From Aestuariivirga sp. (GTDB lineage Bacteria > Pseudomonadota > Alphaproteobacteria > Rhizobiales > Aestuariivirgaceae), in assembly GCF_020252405.1 (NCBI RefSeq), contig NZ_JADCDA010000003.1, positions 1 to 50,398 on the forward strand: a DNA stretch of 50,398 nt, read 5' to 3'. The notes under the pieces were generated by a model, which worked only from the letters and a program-made list of their open reading frames with translations, was not told the DNA's origin and ran no database searches. Shown piece after piece: positions 37,990-46,313 of the stretch (positions within the stretch are counted from its first letter, which is position 1; each line of letters opens with the position of its first letter). A program made the position numbers and the translations under genes.

Positions 37990-38784
37990 TCAATCCTTCG
38001 TCACCGTGGTGAACAGCCCGCCGCCGTTCACCACTTCGAGCACGGCGCCGGGCTTTCTGATCGAGAAGACCACTACCGGAATCCCATTGTCCCGCGCAAG
38101 GGCAATGGCGGCGGGGTCCATGATGCGCAGGTCCCTGGCCAGAATTTCGCCAAAGGTGATCCTGTCATAGCGGCGCGCCGCGGGGTCGGCCTTGGGATCG
38201 GCGGAATAGACGCCGTCGACGCTGGTGCCCTTGAACAGCGCATCGCAGCCGAGCTCGGCCGCGCGCAGCGCCGCACCCGTGTCGGTGGTGAAGAAGGGAA
38301 GCCCGGTGCCCGCCGCGCAGATGATGATGCGGCCCGCCTCAAGGTGGTGAATGCCCTTGGCGCGCGAATAGGTTTCGCACACGGTGGGCATGGCAATGGC
38401 GGAGAGCACCCGCGCATCCATGCCCTTGCGCGTCAGCACCCCCTGCATGGCCAGCGCGTTCATGACGGTGGCCATGATGCCCATGTGATCGGCCGGCACT
38501 CGGTCCATGCCCTTCGCCGCCCCGGCGAGCCCGCGGAAAATGTTGCCGCCGCCAATGACAAGCGCCAGCTGCACGCCCGTCCCCGCCACCGCCAGCACCT
38601 CATCGGCGAGCCGGCCAACCGTATCAAGATCGATGCCATAGGGCTGGCCGCCCATCAGAACTTCGCCCGAAAGCTTGAGAAGGATGCGCCTGTAGGTGGG
38701 CCCGCGGGCGGGCGCATATGGGGGAGGCGTATGTGGGGGCGTATGTATGGGCGTATGTGGGGGCGTATGTGGGGGCGTGGACAT
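37990..38784 (-). CDS. pyrH: UMP kinase with a repeat-encoded N-terminal extension
   Basis: 264 residues. The kinase begins at [63 protein letters not shown] and [15 protein letters not shown] complete the amino-acid-kinase fold. It makes UDP from UMP and ATP. Unusual is the first 30 residues, with repeated PPHT units encoded by the 12-bp tandem repeats at 38729-38776, which typical bacterial PyrH lacks. ATG 38784 could in principle be wrong, but the frame has no ATG nearer the kinase core before RR-ILLKL; a GTG at 38700 region (VGP) is possible. rpsB-tsf, which usually precede pyrH, are absent. Confidence 0.93.
38729..38776. repeat. 12-bp tandem repeats in the 5' end of pyrH
   Basis: GTATGTGGGGGC at 38729-38740, 38753-38764 and 38765-38776, with a variant GTATGTATGGGC at 38741-38752 and partial copies before it. 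On the minus strand each unit encodes P-P-H-T (variant P-I-H-T). A multiple of three, so length change is frame-neutral. Confidence 0.95.
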
Positions 38785-38896: not shown

Positions 38897-39112
38897 GAGC
38901 TTGATCCGCAAAAGTGGAACCGGTTTTGCGAAAAGATCATGCTCAGGCTTTTGACCTGGTGCCTGTTGTTTTCGGCGGGGCAATTCCTCTTGAACGGAAC
39001 ATGCGCTGGAGCAGGTTGCGGTTCAGTGAAATGGAAACCTGATCTATCTGTTTGTTTGTTTGGTCGCATTTTCGACGGTCAGCCGGAGCCCACCTGACCA
39101 GAAAATGCTTCA
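38897..39112. repeat. Mosaic palindromic repeat, copy 12 (modules B, A, C, D)
   Basis: All four modules in the same order as copy 6: B (GAGCTTGATCCGCAAAAGTG to AAAAGATCATGCTC), A-like (GGTGCCTGTTGTTTTCGGCG to GAACGGAACATGCGC), C (GGAGCAGGTTGCGGTTCAGT to AAACCTGATC) and D (GCATTTTCGACGGTCAGCCG to CACCTGACCAGAAAATGC). It separates pyrH from tRNA-Thr. Confidence 0.9.
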
Positions 39113-39154: not shown

Positions 39155-39229
39155 GCCGGGTTAGCTCAGCGGTAGAGCAGCGGTTTTGTAAACCGAAGGC
39201 CGGGGGTTCAATCCCCTCACCCGGCACCA
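39155..39229 (+). tRNA. tRNA-Thr(UGU)
   Basis: GCCGGGT pairs with ACCCGGC, D arm TAGCTCAGCGGTAGAGC, anticodon loop TTTGTAA gives UGU, T arm GGGGGTTCAATCCCC, discriminator A and encoded CCA. Immediately downstream begins a lower-GC stretch (to about 44.2 kb), so the 3' end is a possible insertion point. Confidence 0.95.
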
Positions 39230-39267
39230 TAATTCCTTTTTTCGTGTTTTCATCCTTACCGGTTTAG

Positions 39268-40077
39268 ATGATGCCGCGCACGTTCACCACATTGCGCCAT
39301 CCGGTCGAAAAGCTACTCGAAGCTGAGTACTTTCTTGCGGGCGTGTCCCAGTCCTCGGGCCTCAATTTTCAGTTCGAATTGAATGCCTTTCTTTCAGCTA
39401 GTCGCAGCGTGACATTCGTGCTTCAAAAAGCAATGTCCGAAGTTCCGCTCTTCGCTGCTTGGTACGAGCAGCAGCAAGCCTCTATGAAGGCCGATGCGGC
39501 AACGCGGTTTTTCATTGAGCTACGAAATATCTCTCAAAAGCAGGGACCGGTTTCGTTTGTTGGCGGCAGCCTACTGAGCAGAGGTTGGACATATCGTTTC
39601 GTAGGAAGGCCGCATGCGGTTCCTGCGGAATTGGTTGGGCGTGACATTGGGACATGTTGCGCCTCGCACCTGATGAAGCTTGCAAATTTGTTGCTCGCCT
39701 GCACCCAAGTATTTCCTTTTCACTCCTGCCCGAGCCGAGCCTTCAGCGAGGAGGGCATGGCAGCTTTGAGATATGACTGGCGTGATGTCGAAGACGCAAT
39801 TGGATTACCCGCTGGGTATACCGACGTTGCGGGCATTCCCGCGTCGGAGAAACTTCGCGTCTTTCGCCGCGAAATTGAACCTCTCGACATGGCGTCAATT
39901 GAGCGCATCGCAGTCGGTGACCTTCGCACCAACGGGGCACAACTTAAATTTCCCGCATCCAGCGGCTCCGATCTGGTGGATGGTATAGCTACAAGAATGG
40001 GATCTACCAACACTGAGAGCGGACATCCACGCGAGGTATTCCTCCAAGCAGTGCTCAAGCGTATCAAAGATATTTAA
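39268..40077 (+). CDS. Unknown protein at start of the tRNA-Thr island
   Basis: 269 residues, not recognised. No signal peptide or membrane segment; the sequence has an N-terminal helical part (LNAFLSASRSVTFVLQKAMS), a central YRFVGRPHAVPAELVGRDIG, cysteines in GTCCASHL, and a C-terminal half with DWRDVEDAIGLPAGY and VFLQAVLKRIKDI. Base composition and codon use are AT-richer than in neighbours upstream of tRNA-Thr. ATG 39268 is followed by a second ATG; no strong ribosome-binding site is visible. It converges on the coupled Rossmann-like/ATPase pair. It could be an effector of that island or an unrelated passenger. Confidence 0.6.
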   Translation: MMPRTFTTLRHPVEKLLEAEYFLAGVSQSSGLNFQFELNAFLSASRSVTFVLQKAMSEVPLFAAWYEQQQASMKADAATRFFIELRNISQKQGPVSFVGGSLLSRGWTYRFVGRPHAVPAELVGRDIGTCCASHLMKLANLLLACTQVFPFHSCPSRAFSEEGMAALRYDWRDVEDAIGLPAGYTDVAGIPASEKLRVFRREIEPLDMASIERIAVGDLRTNGAQLKFPASSGSDLVDGIATRMGSTNTESGHPREVFLQAVLKRIKDI

Positions 40078-40108
40078 TCACCATAGTTCGCAAGCCGCTT
40101 ACCTGCCA

Positions 40109-41128
40109 TCAAATCTCAGCGGAAAGCAAGGTGGGATAGAACCTGTAATATCTCCTATAGCATTCCAGAAACTCATCCATCTTGATATCTGAGGCCGCGC
40201 CAAAGCCCAATTCTGCGACAAGGTCCACGGGATTTTTGCTCATTATCCCTTTTTCCAAAAAAAGTCGCTCGCGTATCGTCAAAGTCGGCACGAGGAGACG
40301 GTGAACTTCCGACCAATCGGTCGAGACGAATGGCCAAGATTGCACATCAAGCCTCTCCAAAAAGGCACTCCTATCGCTTCGAGGAACAATCGCACCTGTA
40401 ATCGACAGCATTTGCTCGCCGTCAGCATACCGGATGATAGAGAGCGGACAAAAAATGTTGTCTCCTGTGACAGGTAGTGCCTTCAATGCCGCAGCGCCAA
40501 ACGATTTTGAAATAGCAAGAGGAAGACCTTCTTGCGTCATATTCTTGGGAGAGGTTTCAGAGGGAAGAAATTCGCCGATGCGGCTCTTTAGATTCTTGAA
40601 TTGCCTTTCCTGCTTATCGGTCACGAGTAATGGGATTGCACCCGGGAGCTGAGGCTCAAGGAGCGCGCTCGGCTGCGCGTTTACAGTTACACGAACAAGG
40701 TCACCGGCTCTTAGCTTGTTGAGAAGGGCCTCGAACTCCCTGACTTGATGGCCGAGCTGTCCTGGACTCGTGTAGTCCAACCATACGATCAGGCCTTCAG
40801 GCTCAGGGAACGAGCAAGCACTCAAAATGGCATCCAGATCGGAGATCAATTCGCCTGATTTTTTATGAAGACAATGACATGTCTCGATTGGTTTGTTGAA
40901 CTTCTGTCGAGCGACGATCAACTCCTCCAAATCGAAGGCTATCAGCCGCGTGATGCCCAAATGTCGATGAACCAGTTTATGGTCCTCAAGCGGGTAAGCT
41001 CCCATACTCACGTACACGTATTCGGCAAGCGGCTTCCATCGCTCAAAACGAGTTAGGAGATCGAGGAATAGCCTCCGATCAACGCTTTTGTGCGGTCTAA
41101 GGTAATATGGGATCGAGGCACCGCTCAT
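40109..41128 (-). CDS. Rossmann-like protein coupled to a GHKL ATPase
   Basis: 339 residues. It opens with YYLRPHKSVDRRLFLDLLTR and then has a Rossmann-like succession: a strand ending in YVYVSMGAYPLEDHKLV, then LIAFDLEE (acidic end of beta 2), a long helix with RQKFNKPIETCHCL, then EGLIVWLDYTSPGQLG, and GDLVRVTVNAQPS. The order resembles a SAM-dependent methyltransferase fold in which motif I is weakly kept; proteins of this type are sometimes annotated as O-methyltransferase-like in defence islands. This is pattern recognition, not proof. Its ATG overlaps the ATPase stop by four bases (ATGA), so the two are made together. Lower-GC sequence. Confidence 0.55.
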   Translation of the reverse strand: MSGASIPYYLRPHKSVDRRLFLDLLTRFERWKPLAEYVYVSMGAYPLEDHKLVHRHLGITRLIAFDLEELIVARQKFNKPIETCHCLHKKSGELISDLDAILSACSFPEPEGLIVWLDYTSPGQLGHQVREFEALLNKLRAGDLVRVTVNAQPSALLEPQLPGAIPLLVTDKQERQFKNLKSRIGEFLPSETSPKNMTQEGLPLAISKSFGAAALKALPVTGDNIFCPLSIIRYADGEQMLSITGAIVPRSDRSAFLERLDVQSWPFVSTDWSEVHRLLVPTLTIRERLFLEKGIMSKNPVDLVAELGFGAASDIKMDEFLECYRRYYRFYPTLLSAEI

Positions 41129-42561
41129 TTTTCGGGGGCCTTGGTCGCCCTAAGCGCCTCATTGAATGCAGCCTCACCAACAGCTCCCGGTTTGACCCTG
41201 ACATCATCGAAGAAATGCTTTGCGAGAGTAGCTACATCAGTCTTAAGCGCAACGAAGCTGACACGTAAGCTGGTCTTCTCCTGTTCAGGCTCTGGATACT
41301 TTGGTTCGTATTTCTTGATCCCTTCCACTTTACGGCTTAAAATCATAGGCAATGCCGCAGGAAGCGAGCGCAAAGTAGGTAGATCGACATATTCGCTTGC
41401 CTTATATATTTCTTCCAATTTCTGTGGAAATTTCTTCCATTTGTTTGTGAAAGAAGTCAGATGCTTAGTTGCATCACGCATCAAATCCTTCGCTTCGGAA
41501 TAGACGTTCGAAGCTGCGTCTATTCCTCTTTTCGTAGTCGTCAGAGGAAGTTTCTTCGGATCATCACATCGCAGAAGAACAATCCCTGTGATCGCGATAA
41601 ACTGGCCATGGTAATTAGGGACCGTCGCCTCACCCCAACCGGTCAAACGTGACTTGTCCTTCCAAATCACTACTCGATCGTTGCAGGCAACGGTCCAGCC
41701 GGCGTCGTCGCTGGCACCCCTTGTATCTTCCTCTTCCTCACCTTCTTCCTCAGAAAGAAGCTCACGATACAGGCCAGCGAAGATTTCGACCTCCACATCA
41801 CCAAGCGTTCCTGCATAGACATAGGGCGCAATTCGTTGATCTGTTCCACCGGTTGTTCGAATGAGCTTAAATTCTTCTGCGTCAATCGGTGAAACACCTG
41901 CCGCCATTTCGGCATCAGATCCCACACTGACGGAAAAGCCTTTTGCGATGATGAGAGAATAGTGTCGCGCAACGGTTCGCCGGAACTCATCAATCCAAGA
42001 GCCGTCCAAAAACGATGACTTCACTTCATCGTTGAGTTGATAGATTTCGATGCGCGTTCCCTTCTCCGGCAGTTTGCTATCGGCCAACTCATACATTGGT
42101 AGTTCGTCCCACTTATCGTCGCGCATCCAGTCAGGGGTGAACTCTACGACGAATCCTGTATCATGTCGGGACTCGACCAAAGCCTCCGTTCCGAGCTTGA
42201 AGATGGCCCGCTTCATTCCGATCCCATACATGCCGACGGTGGCGCCGTGTGCGGTCGTCCCGGTTGCCGGCGGTCGACCCATCGCGAACGCGCTCTTCTT
42301 AGCAACTTCGATCGGTATTCCACCGCAGTTGTCTTCGATTACGAAGTGGTCGGGCGCAATAGTCAGGGTGGCTTTGAAACCAGCATAAGGTTTAGAATTG
42401 TCAGTCGAGATCGTCCCGGACCGAATAATTCCGTCGACACAGTTGTCCAGCAGATCGAGGAGAGCGTCTTGGAGTTCGATGTCTCGCGTCAACATCCGAA
42501 CGAAGAACTCTTTCGTCGGGGATGCCACCGCGGTCCCGATTTGTTCTGCGCTTCCAATCAT
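41125..42561 (-). CDS. MORC/Hsp90-like GHKL ATPase
   Basis: 478 residues. The Bergerat ATP fold is clear: N box DALLDLLDNCVDGII (Asn binds Mg), G1 box FVIEDNCGGIP, G2 region YGIGMKRAIFKLG, and a following transducer-like part with TRIEIYQLNDEV. An Asp/Glu-rich tract (LLSEEEGEEEEDTRG) sits in the middle, and KGIDAASNVY... with RDATKHLTSFTNKWKK forms the C-terminal helices. Related ATPases (MORC and relatives) in bacteria accompany restriction-modification genes. It heads a two-gene minus-strand operon and is divergent from the DNA methyltransferase across 100 bp. It lacks a visible nuclease domain. Confidence 0.85.
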   Translation of the reverse strand: MIGSAEQIGTAVASPTKEFFVRMLTRDIELQDALLDLLDNCVDGIIRSGTISTDNSKPYAGFKATLTIAPDHFVIEDNCGGIPIEVAKKSAFAMGRPPATGTTAHGATVGMYGIGMKRAIFKLGTEALVESRHDTGFVVEFTPDWMRDDKWDELPMYELADSKLPEKGTRIEIYQLNDEVKSSFLDGSWIDEFRRTVARHYSLIIAKGFSVSVGSDAEMAAGVSPIDAEEFKLIRTTGGTDQRIAPYVYAGTLGDVEVEIFAGLYRELLSEEEGEEEEDTRGASDDAGWTVACNDRVVIWKDKSRLTGWGEATVPNYHGQFIAITGIVLLRCDDPKKLPLTTTKRGIDAASNVYSEAKDLMRDATKHLTSFTNKWKKFPQKLEEIYKASEYVDLPTLRSLPAALPMILSRKVEGIKKYEPKYPEPEQEKTSLRVSFVALKTDVATLAKHFFDDVRVKPGAVGEAAFNEALRATKAPEK

Positions 42562-42661
42562 GCTTCACTCCCCTTCCGTCATGGCTGATTCCCCGTTCGA
42601 CGGCTCTTGACAAATAAGGTATAGTCTTCCGATCAGCCATAATCGAGGGAAAGGGTAGTTT

Positions 42662-43753
42662 GTGCAAGGGGTGCCCAAAATCATTGACCTGTTCTGCGGC
42701 TGTGGAGGTTTCTCGTTAGGGGCTGAGGCCTCTGGTTTGGTGCCCACGGCTGCATTCGATATCGATCCTATCCTAACGTCTTCATTTTTGGTTAACCACC
42801 CGAAATCCCGACTGATACTCACTGATCTGTCGAAAGCCACGGGAGCGGACATTATTCAGGTGGCTGGGGGACAGGTTGATGGGGTTTTCGGGGGGCCGCC
42901 CTGCCAGGCATTCAGTGCAATTGGGCATCGCCACGTTGACGATCCGCGGCGGACTCTCCTCGGACATTTTTTTCGACTGATCTCCGAACTGAAGCCGTCG
43001 TTCTTTGTAATGGAAAACGTCACGGGGCTCGGCTATTCTAACACTCGGCGAGTTTTGAATGAGGCGTTGAGCCTTATTCCTAGCAGGTACAACGTTCTTG
43101 GCCCGCTCGTCTTGGATTCTGCCGATTTTGGGGCGGCGACCAGACGTCCGCGCTTGTTCATTATAGGCTATGATCCAGCTCGGTGCGACAATCTCACTGA
43201 AGCCGACATCGAGACAAGAAAGCAAAAGCCGACGACTGTTCGCGCGGCAATCTCCGACCTTGCGACTGCAGTTCAACTCCATGATGACGGCGAATACGAT
43301 CAATGGAAAATCTGCCAGCGGGGGCGTCCGAGTAGCTATGCGGCCTGCCTTCGTAACAAGGACGGTACGTTCACCGGCCATAGACGAACCGTTCACTCGC
43401 CTGAGGTGATTAAGCGTTTCAAAAAGGTAGAGCAGGGTGGCATTGAGACCGTTGGCCGCCATCCACGTCTAAGCTGGCATGGGCAGTGTCCGACGCTGCG
43501 CGCGGGTACCGGAAATGATCGTGGATCGTTTCAATCTGTTCGACCTCTTCACCCCGACGAACCTCGAGTGATAACCGTGAGAGAAGGAGCTCGATTACAA
43601 GGCTTCCCAGATGGTTTCCGCTTCCATCCGGCTGTCTGGCACAGCTTCCGAATGATCGGCAATAGTGTATCGCCCATTTTGTCAAAGATGATATTCTCAT
43701 TGATTGCGTCACGCATAGAAACCGGTCGGGGATTCCGGTTGGCAGCGGAGTGA
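42662..43753 (+). CDS. DNA (cytosine-5) methyltransferase
   Basis: 363 residues. Motif I DLFCGCGGFSLG, motif II-like AFDIDP, motif IV GGPPCQAFS with catalytic Cys81, motif VI FFVMENV, motif VIII ATRRPRLFIIG, and motif X GNSVSP. The region before motif IX, with RLSWHGQCPTLRAGTG and RLQGFPDGF, is short, so the target-recognition part is compact. Start is GTG 42662, with AAAGGG about six bases upstream; GTG 42671 is an alternative. It modifies a cytosine at an unknown site. The next gene, five bases on, is vsr, as expected for C5 methylation, whose deamination yields T:G mismatches. Confidence 0.95.
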   Translation: MQGVPKIIDLFCGCGGFSLGAEASGLVPTAAFDIDPILTSSFLVNHPKSRLILTDLSKATGADIIQVAGGQVDGVFGGPPCQAFSAIGHRHVDDPRRTLLGHFFRLISELKPSFFVMENVTGLGYSNTRRVLNEALSLIPSRYNVLGPLVLDSADFGAATRRPRLFIIGYDPARCDNLTEADIETRKQKPTTVRAAISDLATAVQLHDDGEYDQWKICQRGRPSSYAACLRNKDGTFTGHRRTVHSPEVIKRFKKVEQGGIETVGRHPRLSWHGQCPTLRAGTGNDRGSFQSVRPLHPDEPRVITVREGARLQGFPDGFRFHPAVWHSFRMIGNSVSPILSKMIFSLIASRIETGRGFRLAAE

Positions 43754-43757
43754 CTCT

Positions 43758-44122
43758 TTGACAAATAGGCTGTCGCCTAACCGAAGATCCTGGCTAATGT
43801 CTCGCGTTAGCAGCAAGAATACGGTGCTGGAAATCGTTGTCAGGAAGGTAGCTCGTTCATTGGGACGGCGATTCCGCTTACATCAGAAGCAACTCCTTGG
43901 AACGCCGGACCTTGTTCTCCCCCCAAGTGGCGAACGACAATAGTTGTCCACGGTTGCTTATGGCATCGACACATTGGCTGCACGAAAGCAAGCACCCCGA
44001 AAAGCCGGGCTGGGTACTGGCAGAACAAACTGTCATCGAACGTCCAGCGCGACAGAAAGAATGTTGCCCTGTTGCGCAAAGAGGGTTGGCTTGGACTTAC
44101 CGTTTGGGAGTGTGAAACCTAA
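43758..44122 (+). pseudogene. vsr: Very short patch repair endonuclease (Vsr), frameshifted
   Basis: From a TTG at 43758 the first 62 codons read NRLSPNRRSWLMSRVSSKNT, then RFRLHQKQLLGTPDLVLPP and reach a stop at 43943. A second frame continues from the same place: KWRTTIVVHGCLWHRH, GCTKASTPKSRAGYW and a C-terminal GWLGLTVWECET with TAA at 44120-44122. Together they give a full Vsr (zinc ligands and catalytic residues in HGCLWHRH and following). The break lies at six C (43919-43924); one extra C would restore the frame. So either an inactive gene, a phase-variable tract, or a sequencing error. Confidence 0.85.
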
Positions 44123-44323
44123 AATGCCGCCAAGCTCAGCATTAAACTTGCGCAAGCCGTTGTAAGCCCCCTCCACCTTACCTCATAGGTTGGAGTCCCG
44201 GCAGCGTGACCGCCCTGTTTAGCGGTTGATGCAATGGCCATAGGCGCGGGGTCCTCGGGCTGCGCGGCCGCCTGGTGGCCATTGCTTGCTCAGGCGGCTG
44301 CGATCAGCGAACCTTCGCCCCCG

Positions 44324-44830
44324 TCAGGCCGGCGGGTTGGACTTCACATGCTCGTCGAGCGCGTCGCGCAGGGCTTTTTCCTTGGTTTCGTCGAGCGAGG
44401 TGCGCAGCACCGTGCCGCCATAGGGGGCGAGGTCGGCCAGCACCTTGTCGGCGGTCATGTTCCTGACGAGCAGGAACAGCGCGGCATTGCCCGGCTTGAT
44501 CGCTTCGGCGACGCCTTTCATGAATTCGTCATTGATGCCGTAATCGCTGAGCTTGCCGCCCAGCGCGCCCGCCGCGGCCCCCAGCAGCACGCCCGCCAGC
44601 GGCATCATGAACACCAGGCCGACGAGGAGGCCCCAGAAGCTGCCCGAAGCCGCACCGGCGGCGGTGGTGTTCAACAGCTGATTGAGCTTGATCTTTCCGT
44701 CAGCGTCCTTGACGACCACCACGGCATCCTGCAGCGAGATCAGATACTCCTTCTGGAGCTCCAGCACGCGCTTGCGGACGGTCTCCGCCTTTTCCTCGGT
44801 CTCATAGGTAATCGCAATAAGATCGGCCAT
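44324..44830 (-). CDS. DUF1269 membrane protein
   Basis: 168 residues from ATG 44830 (GGAGG seven bases upstream). N-terminal soluble part LIAITYETEEKAETVRKRVLE and ISLQDAVVVVKDADGKIKL, then a Gly/Ala-rich hydrophobic stretch (GSFWGLLVGLVFMMPLAGVLLGAAAGAL) and a C-terminal soluble DELVRNMTADKVLADL-like part. This is the DUF1269 family (TM0-like stress membrane proteins). Function unknown. Backbone-type GC content returns here, so the island ends just before. Confidence 0.85.
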   Translation of the reverse strand: MADLIAITYETEEKAETVRKRVLELQKEYLISLQDAVVVVKDADGKIKLNQLLNTTAAGAASGSFWGLLVGLVFMMPLAGVLLGAAAGALGGKLSDYGINDEFMKGVAEAIKPGNAALFLLVRNMTADKVLADLAPYGGTVLRTSLDETKEKALRDALDEHVKSNPPA

Positions 44831-45075
44831 CCGCAACCTCCTGTCAGCCCATTTGCCATGTGGAGCTCAATCGTCCACGTGGACTTTCGCAACACCATTA
44901 CCGCCCAAATCGGCCGCTCACAAGCGGCGGAGCGCGGTTTTTTCCGCATCAGGCCGATGAGAACATATTGGGCGAGGGAGTCCGGATCGCGCCTGGCCAT
45001 TGCGCCTGGCCCTTGCGCCTGGCGGCTTTGCGCCCTCACGCGCCGGGCGGCGCGACAGCGCGGAGAGGCCGGGAC

Positions 45076-46125: not shown

Positions 46126-46206
46126 GCGCTGCGCTCCCGATTTTTGCGGAGTGTTACACATCCGACACTAAACGCAAGATGGCAGCGCGATTGTTTCGGA
46201 ATTCCA

Positions 46207-46313
46207 GCGCATGTTCCGTTCAGGCGGAACCGCCTGGACGGAACATGCGCCAGGTCAAAAGCCTGAGCATGATCTTGTCGCAAAACCGGTTCCACTTTTG
46301 CGGATCATGCTCG
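46207..46313. repeat. Mosaic palindromic repeat, copy 13 (modules A and B)
   Basis: The best-preserved A and B: GCGCATGTTCCGTTCAGGCG to GACGGAACATGCGC and TGAGCATGATCTTGTCGCAA through CACTTTTGCGGATCATGCTC. It lies between divergent genes, upstream of the promoter of the SAF-oxidoreductase operon. Confidence 0.92.

Follow-up and report, generated by a model that had tools for sequence, protein, structure and literature searches.

A conserved gene pair in a low-GC block

What does a low-GC block beside a tRNA gene encode, and do its genes belong together? We asked this of a 50,398-nt stretch of Aestuariivirga sp. (hereafter the window; contig NZ_JADCDA010000003.1, i.e., contig 31 of 107 in a 2.87-Mb genome), in which five genes form such a block: a protein of unknown function, a PF20553 protein, a GHKL ATPase, a C5-cytosine DNA methyltransferase, and a broken vsr. 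A preliminary description, made from the letters alone, had proposed an undescribed defence or modification island here. Its observation was confirmed with two corrections, i.e., the vsr gene is broken and the flanking tRNA-Thr and DUF1269 genes are not conserved in relatives, while its overall interpretation was partly supported. The four reading frames at 39268-40077 (+), 40109-41128 (−), 41125-42561 (−), and 42662-43753 (+) are all open. Overall, the block holds a real, patchily spread, co-conserved module, which we read most plausibly as a defence unit and a variant of the MORC-containing restriction-modification theme.

The ATPase gene (41125-42561, minus strand) overlaps the PF20553 gene (40109-41128, minus strand) by 4 nt, and its profile match and motifs agree with the proposed MORC/GHKL type. 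The HATPase_c_3 profile matched at 31 bits (Pfam cut-off 25), the GHKL ATP-binding motifs were kept in a 12-row alignment except in the truncated protein of locus L002, with Asp replacing the usual first Glu, and the MORC-type S5-domain motif GhXhhpXXRhl is present as GWTVACNDRVV at residue 288. This motif occurred in 19 of 20 ATPases vs 28 of 4000 shuffled sequences. Among solved MORC proteins, MORC3 was the top match for the ATPase but a weak one (E 0.025), and a separate search returned none at E ≤ 0.01.

The partner, previously described only as Rossmann-like, matched the Pfam family PF20553 (Methyltransf_35) at 251.8 bits (cut-off 27) over profile positions 1-307 of 309, and has a class I S-adenosylmethionine (SAM) methyltransferase fold. 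Its structure matches were tied among many methyltransferases, with low Foldseek TM-scores of 0.24 to 0.37 by query length for the 50 matches listed, and a kinship with Trm1 was dropped because of these ties. A sequence search of the PDB with the PF20553 alignment gave no match up to E 1. The motif in these proteins is W-L/F-D-Y/F. In PHROGs, both members of the pair have a family with no assigned function (phrog_20521 and phrog_19983), and our literature search found no paper naming family PF20553.

The pair is retained while the methyltransferase changes

We examined all 22 PF20553 loci collected, from 16 genomes, a Desulfuromonadales metagenome-assembled genome, two plasmids, phage PfAC20, and two viral contigs, with both members of the near-duplicates L008/L011 and L010/L034 counted. 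The ATPase was present in 20 of these loci, and the remaining two (L015 and L034) start at the PF20553 gene on a contig edge. Among the 20 paired loci, 19 have the two genes overlapping or ≤4 bp apart; L009, the exception, is interrupted. The reverse test, across 372 genomes of the class, yielded eight ATPase matches: all four strong ones (E < 1e-160, own genome included) lie beside a PF20553 gene, and the four weak ones (E 1.7e-33 to 8.8e-7) come from genomes not listed with PF20553. The co-conservation on which the preliminary description had staked its proposal was thus observed in both directions.

Pairwise distances of ATPase and PF20553 correlated at 0.949 across 17 loci, a value reached in 0 of 2000 permutations, once L002, L009, L011, L015, and L034 (truncated, broken, cut, or near-duplicate) had been left out. 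Corresponding values for the C5 methyltransferase, also without L008 and L021, which have no C5 gene, were 0.318 with PF20553 (15 loci, 1/2000) and 0.319 with the ATPase (4/2000). The PF20553 tree has a supported group of ten rows that unites the window with L019, L020, L029, L031, L030, L032, and three DISARM loci, while in the C5 tree L019, L020, L029, and L031 join L028, L033, and L035 in a supported clade that excludes the window C5. The latter is nearest that of L015 (71%), a locus whose PF20553 protein is far from the window's (20%). In the C5 tree only three of 12 inner branches were starred. Long branches underlie some placements, and treekit raised warnings about them for the C5 tree (L012) and for the ATPase tree, there including the window. 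Taken together, these comparisons show, at the level of sequence, that the two genes of the pair are passed on together and that the modification gene is swapped.

A C5 methyltransferase was near the pair in 18/22 loci, the four without being L021 and the three with drmA (L002, L008, and L011), and either a C5 or an MmeI-type methyltransferase was present in 20/22. Vsr was near in 8/22 loci, as judged with a profile built from two sequences and with two loci cut by a contig edge. In the window, the C5 methyltransferase (42662-43753, plus strand) is an open frame matching PF00145 at 185.8 bits, with 3g7u as its nearest solved relative (E 3.5e-76); its translation shows, by eye, the PPCQ, ENV, and GNSV motifs of such enzymes. 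This gene is divergent from the pair, as previously stated, and the 100-bp intergenic region (42562-42661) would, by the coordinates of the reading frames, hold both promoters. The adjoining vsr (43758 to about 44167, plus strand) is not one open frame: the N-terminus of Pfam Vsr matches its first half (49.9 bits), and tblastn of intact relatives placed the two halves in different frames with a junction near 43,922. Apart from this broken Vsr, scans against Pfam, NCBIfam, and PADLOC-DB recognised no nuclease family in the block, although a nuclease of unrecognised type is possible.

Distribution and genomic context

PF20553 is rare and patchy in distribution. It was found in 0/24 other genomes of the same genus. 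Counts were 5/385 for the class and 5/398 for a phylum sample (both including the own genome), 8/149 in one other family and 7/299 in its order, and 1/78 in another class, that of a genome already found; these samples overlap and give 16 distinct genomes. Six scans of viral contigs included three with a relative. For Escherichia coli, rejected as a source of relatives, 30 of 5426 genomes matched over ~6% of the query, and all of the 10 matches listed among these 30 fall in the C5 gene. In the one region opened there, the neighbouring ATPase is a HATPase_c_3 protein of greater length, and the gene after it matched nothing in Pfam. This sibling arrangement (L120, 5155-9216, strain EC36) lies beside ssrA and an integrase, and comprises a related C5 methyltransferase, the longer ATPase, and a 344-aa protein that no Pfam family matched.

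Several loci place the pair among defence or mobile genes. DISARM is defined by the drmA, drmB, and drmC genes and is divided into classes. The pair has drmA beside it in 3/22 loci: it is embedded in the DISARM operons of L008 and L011 and adjoins drmA in L002. On the Microvirga plasmid pR24_2, the annotated row reads drmD, MmeI-type enzyme, ATPase, PF20553, drmA, DUF1998, and drmC, and L011, from another genome, has the same gene order and is a near-duplicate of L008. Local DrmA, DrmB, and DrmD profiles (from L008/L011) had no match in the window and a DrmC profile none among the genes listed around the block; the block itself has no recognised drmA, drmB, drmC, or drmD. HNH_2 nuclease genes lie near the cassette in L019, L020, and L030, a count drawn from the clustering and the proteins scanned rather than from every neighbour. 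Furthermore, L013 adjoins a phage integrase gene and L028 a tRNA-Pro.

The filamentous phage PfAC20 carries the row ATPase, PF20553, and C5 at the left end of its record, apart from the genes annotated for replication, zot, and integrase, with PF20553 established as the second gene by a separate search. The phage's description, in the passages considered here, lists only a cytosine methyltransferase and calls the restriction-modification system incomplete (PMC11878078); our result suggests that PfAC20 carries all three core cassette genes.

L021 (11211-15345) holds a pair variant without C5. Beside it lie a 469-aa protein without Pfam match, an SNF2-type helicase, and a NOV_C protein, which may form another modification-linked system. 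In L019, L031, and L033, all from one family, a pyruvate dehydrogenase E1 gene of ~900 aa adjoins the cassette, and the cassette gene that borders it differs among the three; this is a possible insertion hotspot.

Comparison with known systems

Bacterial GHKL ATPases of MORC type were linked to restriction-modification in 2008, when ~70% of prokaryotic MORC neighbourhoods were reported to contain a superfamily II helicase and MORCs and paraMORCs were proposed to loop DNA with ATP like MutL and topoisomerases (Iyer, Abhiman, Aravind 2008, PMC2292703). The block shares with those neighbourhoods a GHKL+S5 ATPase with the MORC motif, adjacent C5 methylase and Vsr genes, sporadic occurrence, and mobility, but its constant partner is a methyltransferase-fold protein, PF20553, which the sections of that paper considered here do not mention. 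The HEF_HK / Response_reg_2 elements (Bellieny-Rabelo 2021, PMC8011034) likewise combine a GHKL ATPase, a partner, a C5 methyltransferase, and Vsr; their partner, however, is described as a receiver-like protein (PF19192), and the Pfam scan of the block, run to E 1, gave no Response_reg_2. VcSduA, a Shedu of paraMORC3 type, shares a GHKL ATPase domain within a protein reported to protect against phages, but there a nuclease is fused to the ATPase, whereas no nuclease domain was recognised here (PMC12137116). The present analysis thus identifies a constant partner for a bacterial MORC-type ATPase, a group on whose mechanism we found little in the literature, and it proposes a role for family PF20553 in a compact, testable system.

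Proposed function and alternatives

Given the constant pairing, the unit inheritance, the defence context (DISARM, Vsr, HNH_2, PfAC20), and the signs of mobility (GC 0.52 vs 0.66; 0/24 in the genus), we favour, with moderate confidence, a horizontally acquired, modification-linked defence module. In such a module, the C5 methyltransferase would set a 5-methylcytosine mark on host DNA, and the MORC ATPase and its PF20553 partner would be produced in coupled fashion and act as one complex. By analogy with what has been proposed for its relatives, the MORC protein may loop or clamp DNA with ATP, and the methyltransferase-fold protein, probably SAM-binding, may read the DNA state or modify a target. 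Entrapment and condensation of DNA have been reported for a worm MORC (PMC8277788). Unmarked DNA from a phage or plasmid could then be trapped and blocked, or passed to a nuclease. As no intact linked nuclease was recognised in this genome, the model requires that DNA be blocked without cleavage or that a nuclease from another locus take part: candidate effectors would be the MORC complex itself, PF20553 modifying a target, or a nuclease encoded elsewhere.

A bolder version, which we consider doubtful, holds that the MORC ATPase and PF20553 form a portable two-protein immune engine with the SAM-dependent methyltransferase-fold protein, and not a nuclease, as sensor or effector. This engine would plug into different C5 lineages, or into MmeI with DISARM, and disable unmarked DNA by ATP-driven topological trapping, as a bacterial counterpart of the silencing by MORC proteins that DNA methylation guides in eukaryotes.

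Several observations weigh against a defence role. No nuclease was recognised in the block and its vsr is broken, so the effector is missing or of an unrecognised kind and this copy is possibly decaying. Some copies elsewhere also look broken, with L009 interrupted and the L002 ATPase lacking its N-terminal part. A methyltransferase fold is not the usual effector, PADLOC-DB holds no family for either protein at E up to 1 and no model for the pair, and no phage test of the pair was found in the literature. The DISARM placement could be insertion rather than cooperation, L008 and L011 being near-duplicates. Finally, the distance correlations ignore host phylogeny and shared ancestry, and that of PF20553 with C5 also lay above nearly all shuffles.

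The pair could instead be modification machinery in itself, i.e., PF20553 would be an active SAM-dependent enzyme that the MORC ATPase loads onto DNA or RNA and that sets a second (or RNA) mark, protecting self DNA rather than attacking foreign DNA. We judge this unlikely, as W-L/F-D-Y/F is not a catalytic motif of the DPPY type, the 20 loci with a C5 or MmeI-type enzyme already have a modification gene, and structure matches tied among many methyltransferases at low TM-scores indicate a shared fold but no function. Equally at odds with defence, the block could be a repair set in which a C5 mark, the Vsr nuclease, and a MutL-like ATPase fix deamination at methylated sites, with PF20553 as an accessory. 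Very short patch repair does use MutL together with Vsr (Iyer et al. 2008, PMC2292703), and the eight loci with Vsr nearby would fit, but PF20553 is kept in the 14/22 loci where Vsr was broken or not found with the limited profile and contigs noted above, and three loci have DISARM drmA without C5 or Vsr, which makes a repair set very improbable. Improbable as well, if a little less so, is that the island is decaying, the module no longer working in this genome and its C5 gene being an orphan modification enzyme: this would account for the broken vsr and the want of a recognised intact nuclease, but the C5, ATPase, and PF20553 frames are open over their full length and keep the conserved motifs, and in relatives the cassette often has no detected vsr.

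The unknown protein at the left end

The 269-aa protein at 39268-40077 (plus strand) had been put forward, like the Rossmann-like protein, as a candidate effector or sensor. It was absent from the 21 other cassette loci, and we regard it as a separate passenger of islands of this kind, outside the core module. It had no Pfam match over cut-off and a remote match to phrog_19262 in PHROGs (1.2e-3), and scans of NCBIfam and PADLOC to E 1 gave no family. Its relatives occur in Methylobacterium (67%), Rhizobium acidisoli (55%), and a prophage-like contig (64%), with partial ones in Acidithiobacillus and Nocardia, and it was found in 0/60 relatives searched, own genome aside. A suspected likeness to HEPN RNases had no family support and the fold model was unusable (pLDDT 42.9), so no such identity is claimed. 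On the R. acidisoli plasmid (L038, 3849-7822), the relative follows a C5 methyltransferase and a 665-aa HATPase_c_3 protein different from the window ATPase, in a row between mobile-element genes. In the prophage-like contig (L040, 4306-5115), it is preceded by methyltransferase-like genes and followed by a terminase-like gene, as seen by eye.

Borders of the block

The block was correctly described as a low-GC segment right of tRNA-Thr that ends before DUF1269: GC content is 0.523 over 39251-44250 vs 0.659 for the remaining window, and the lowest-GC 5-kb segment starts at ~39,000. On the left it is bounded by tRNA-Thr (anticodon TGT; 39155-39229, plus strand; ARAGORN), and the first gene beyond its right end is DUF1269 (44324-44836, minus strand; Pfam 130.7 bits). 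Searches with the last 15, 20, 25, and 30 nt of the tRNA, from 39230 to the window end, found no copy of its 3′ end above the best of 20 shuffled queries, as previously reported. The Pfam scan of the block, the part of the window searched for an integrase, returned none.

Both flanking genes were scarce in relatives: DUF1269 matched in 2/25 genomes and the window tRNA-Thr, at ≥96% identity, in 3/25 (own included in both; the tRNA copy also in G009 and G004), so that proximity to tRNA-Thr does not prove an insertion site. The stretches around the tRNA copy in G009 and G004 had no DNA match to the island past the tRNA. The window pyrH matched in 23/24 relatives (only weakly in G009), and among 12 relatives' pyrH neighbourhoods (stretches of 3 to 12 kb) none held DUF1269 or island genes and one, that of G011, held a tRNA-Thr, 9 kb away. 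The tRNA-Thr(TGT) of G011 is clearly unlike that of the window. With poor synteny and some stretches too short, no empty site could be demonstrated by comparison with relatives.

Two minor features lie near these borders. A dispersed repeat of ~110 bp has inverted copies at 38897-39010 and 46203-46312 (94% complementary over 71 nt and 80% over a further 41 nt) that bracket the block and an ABC gene, with more copies elsewhere in the window. The pyrH frame begins with a repetitive His/Pro/Thr stretch at the N-terminus (38700-38784); relatives match strongly only from residue ~24-30, and the true start probably lies further in than the start of the frame.

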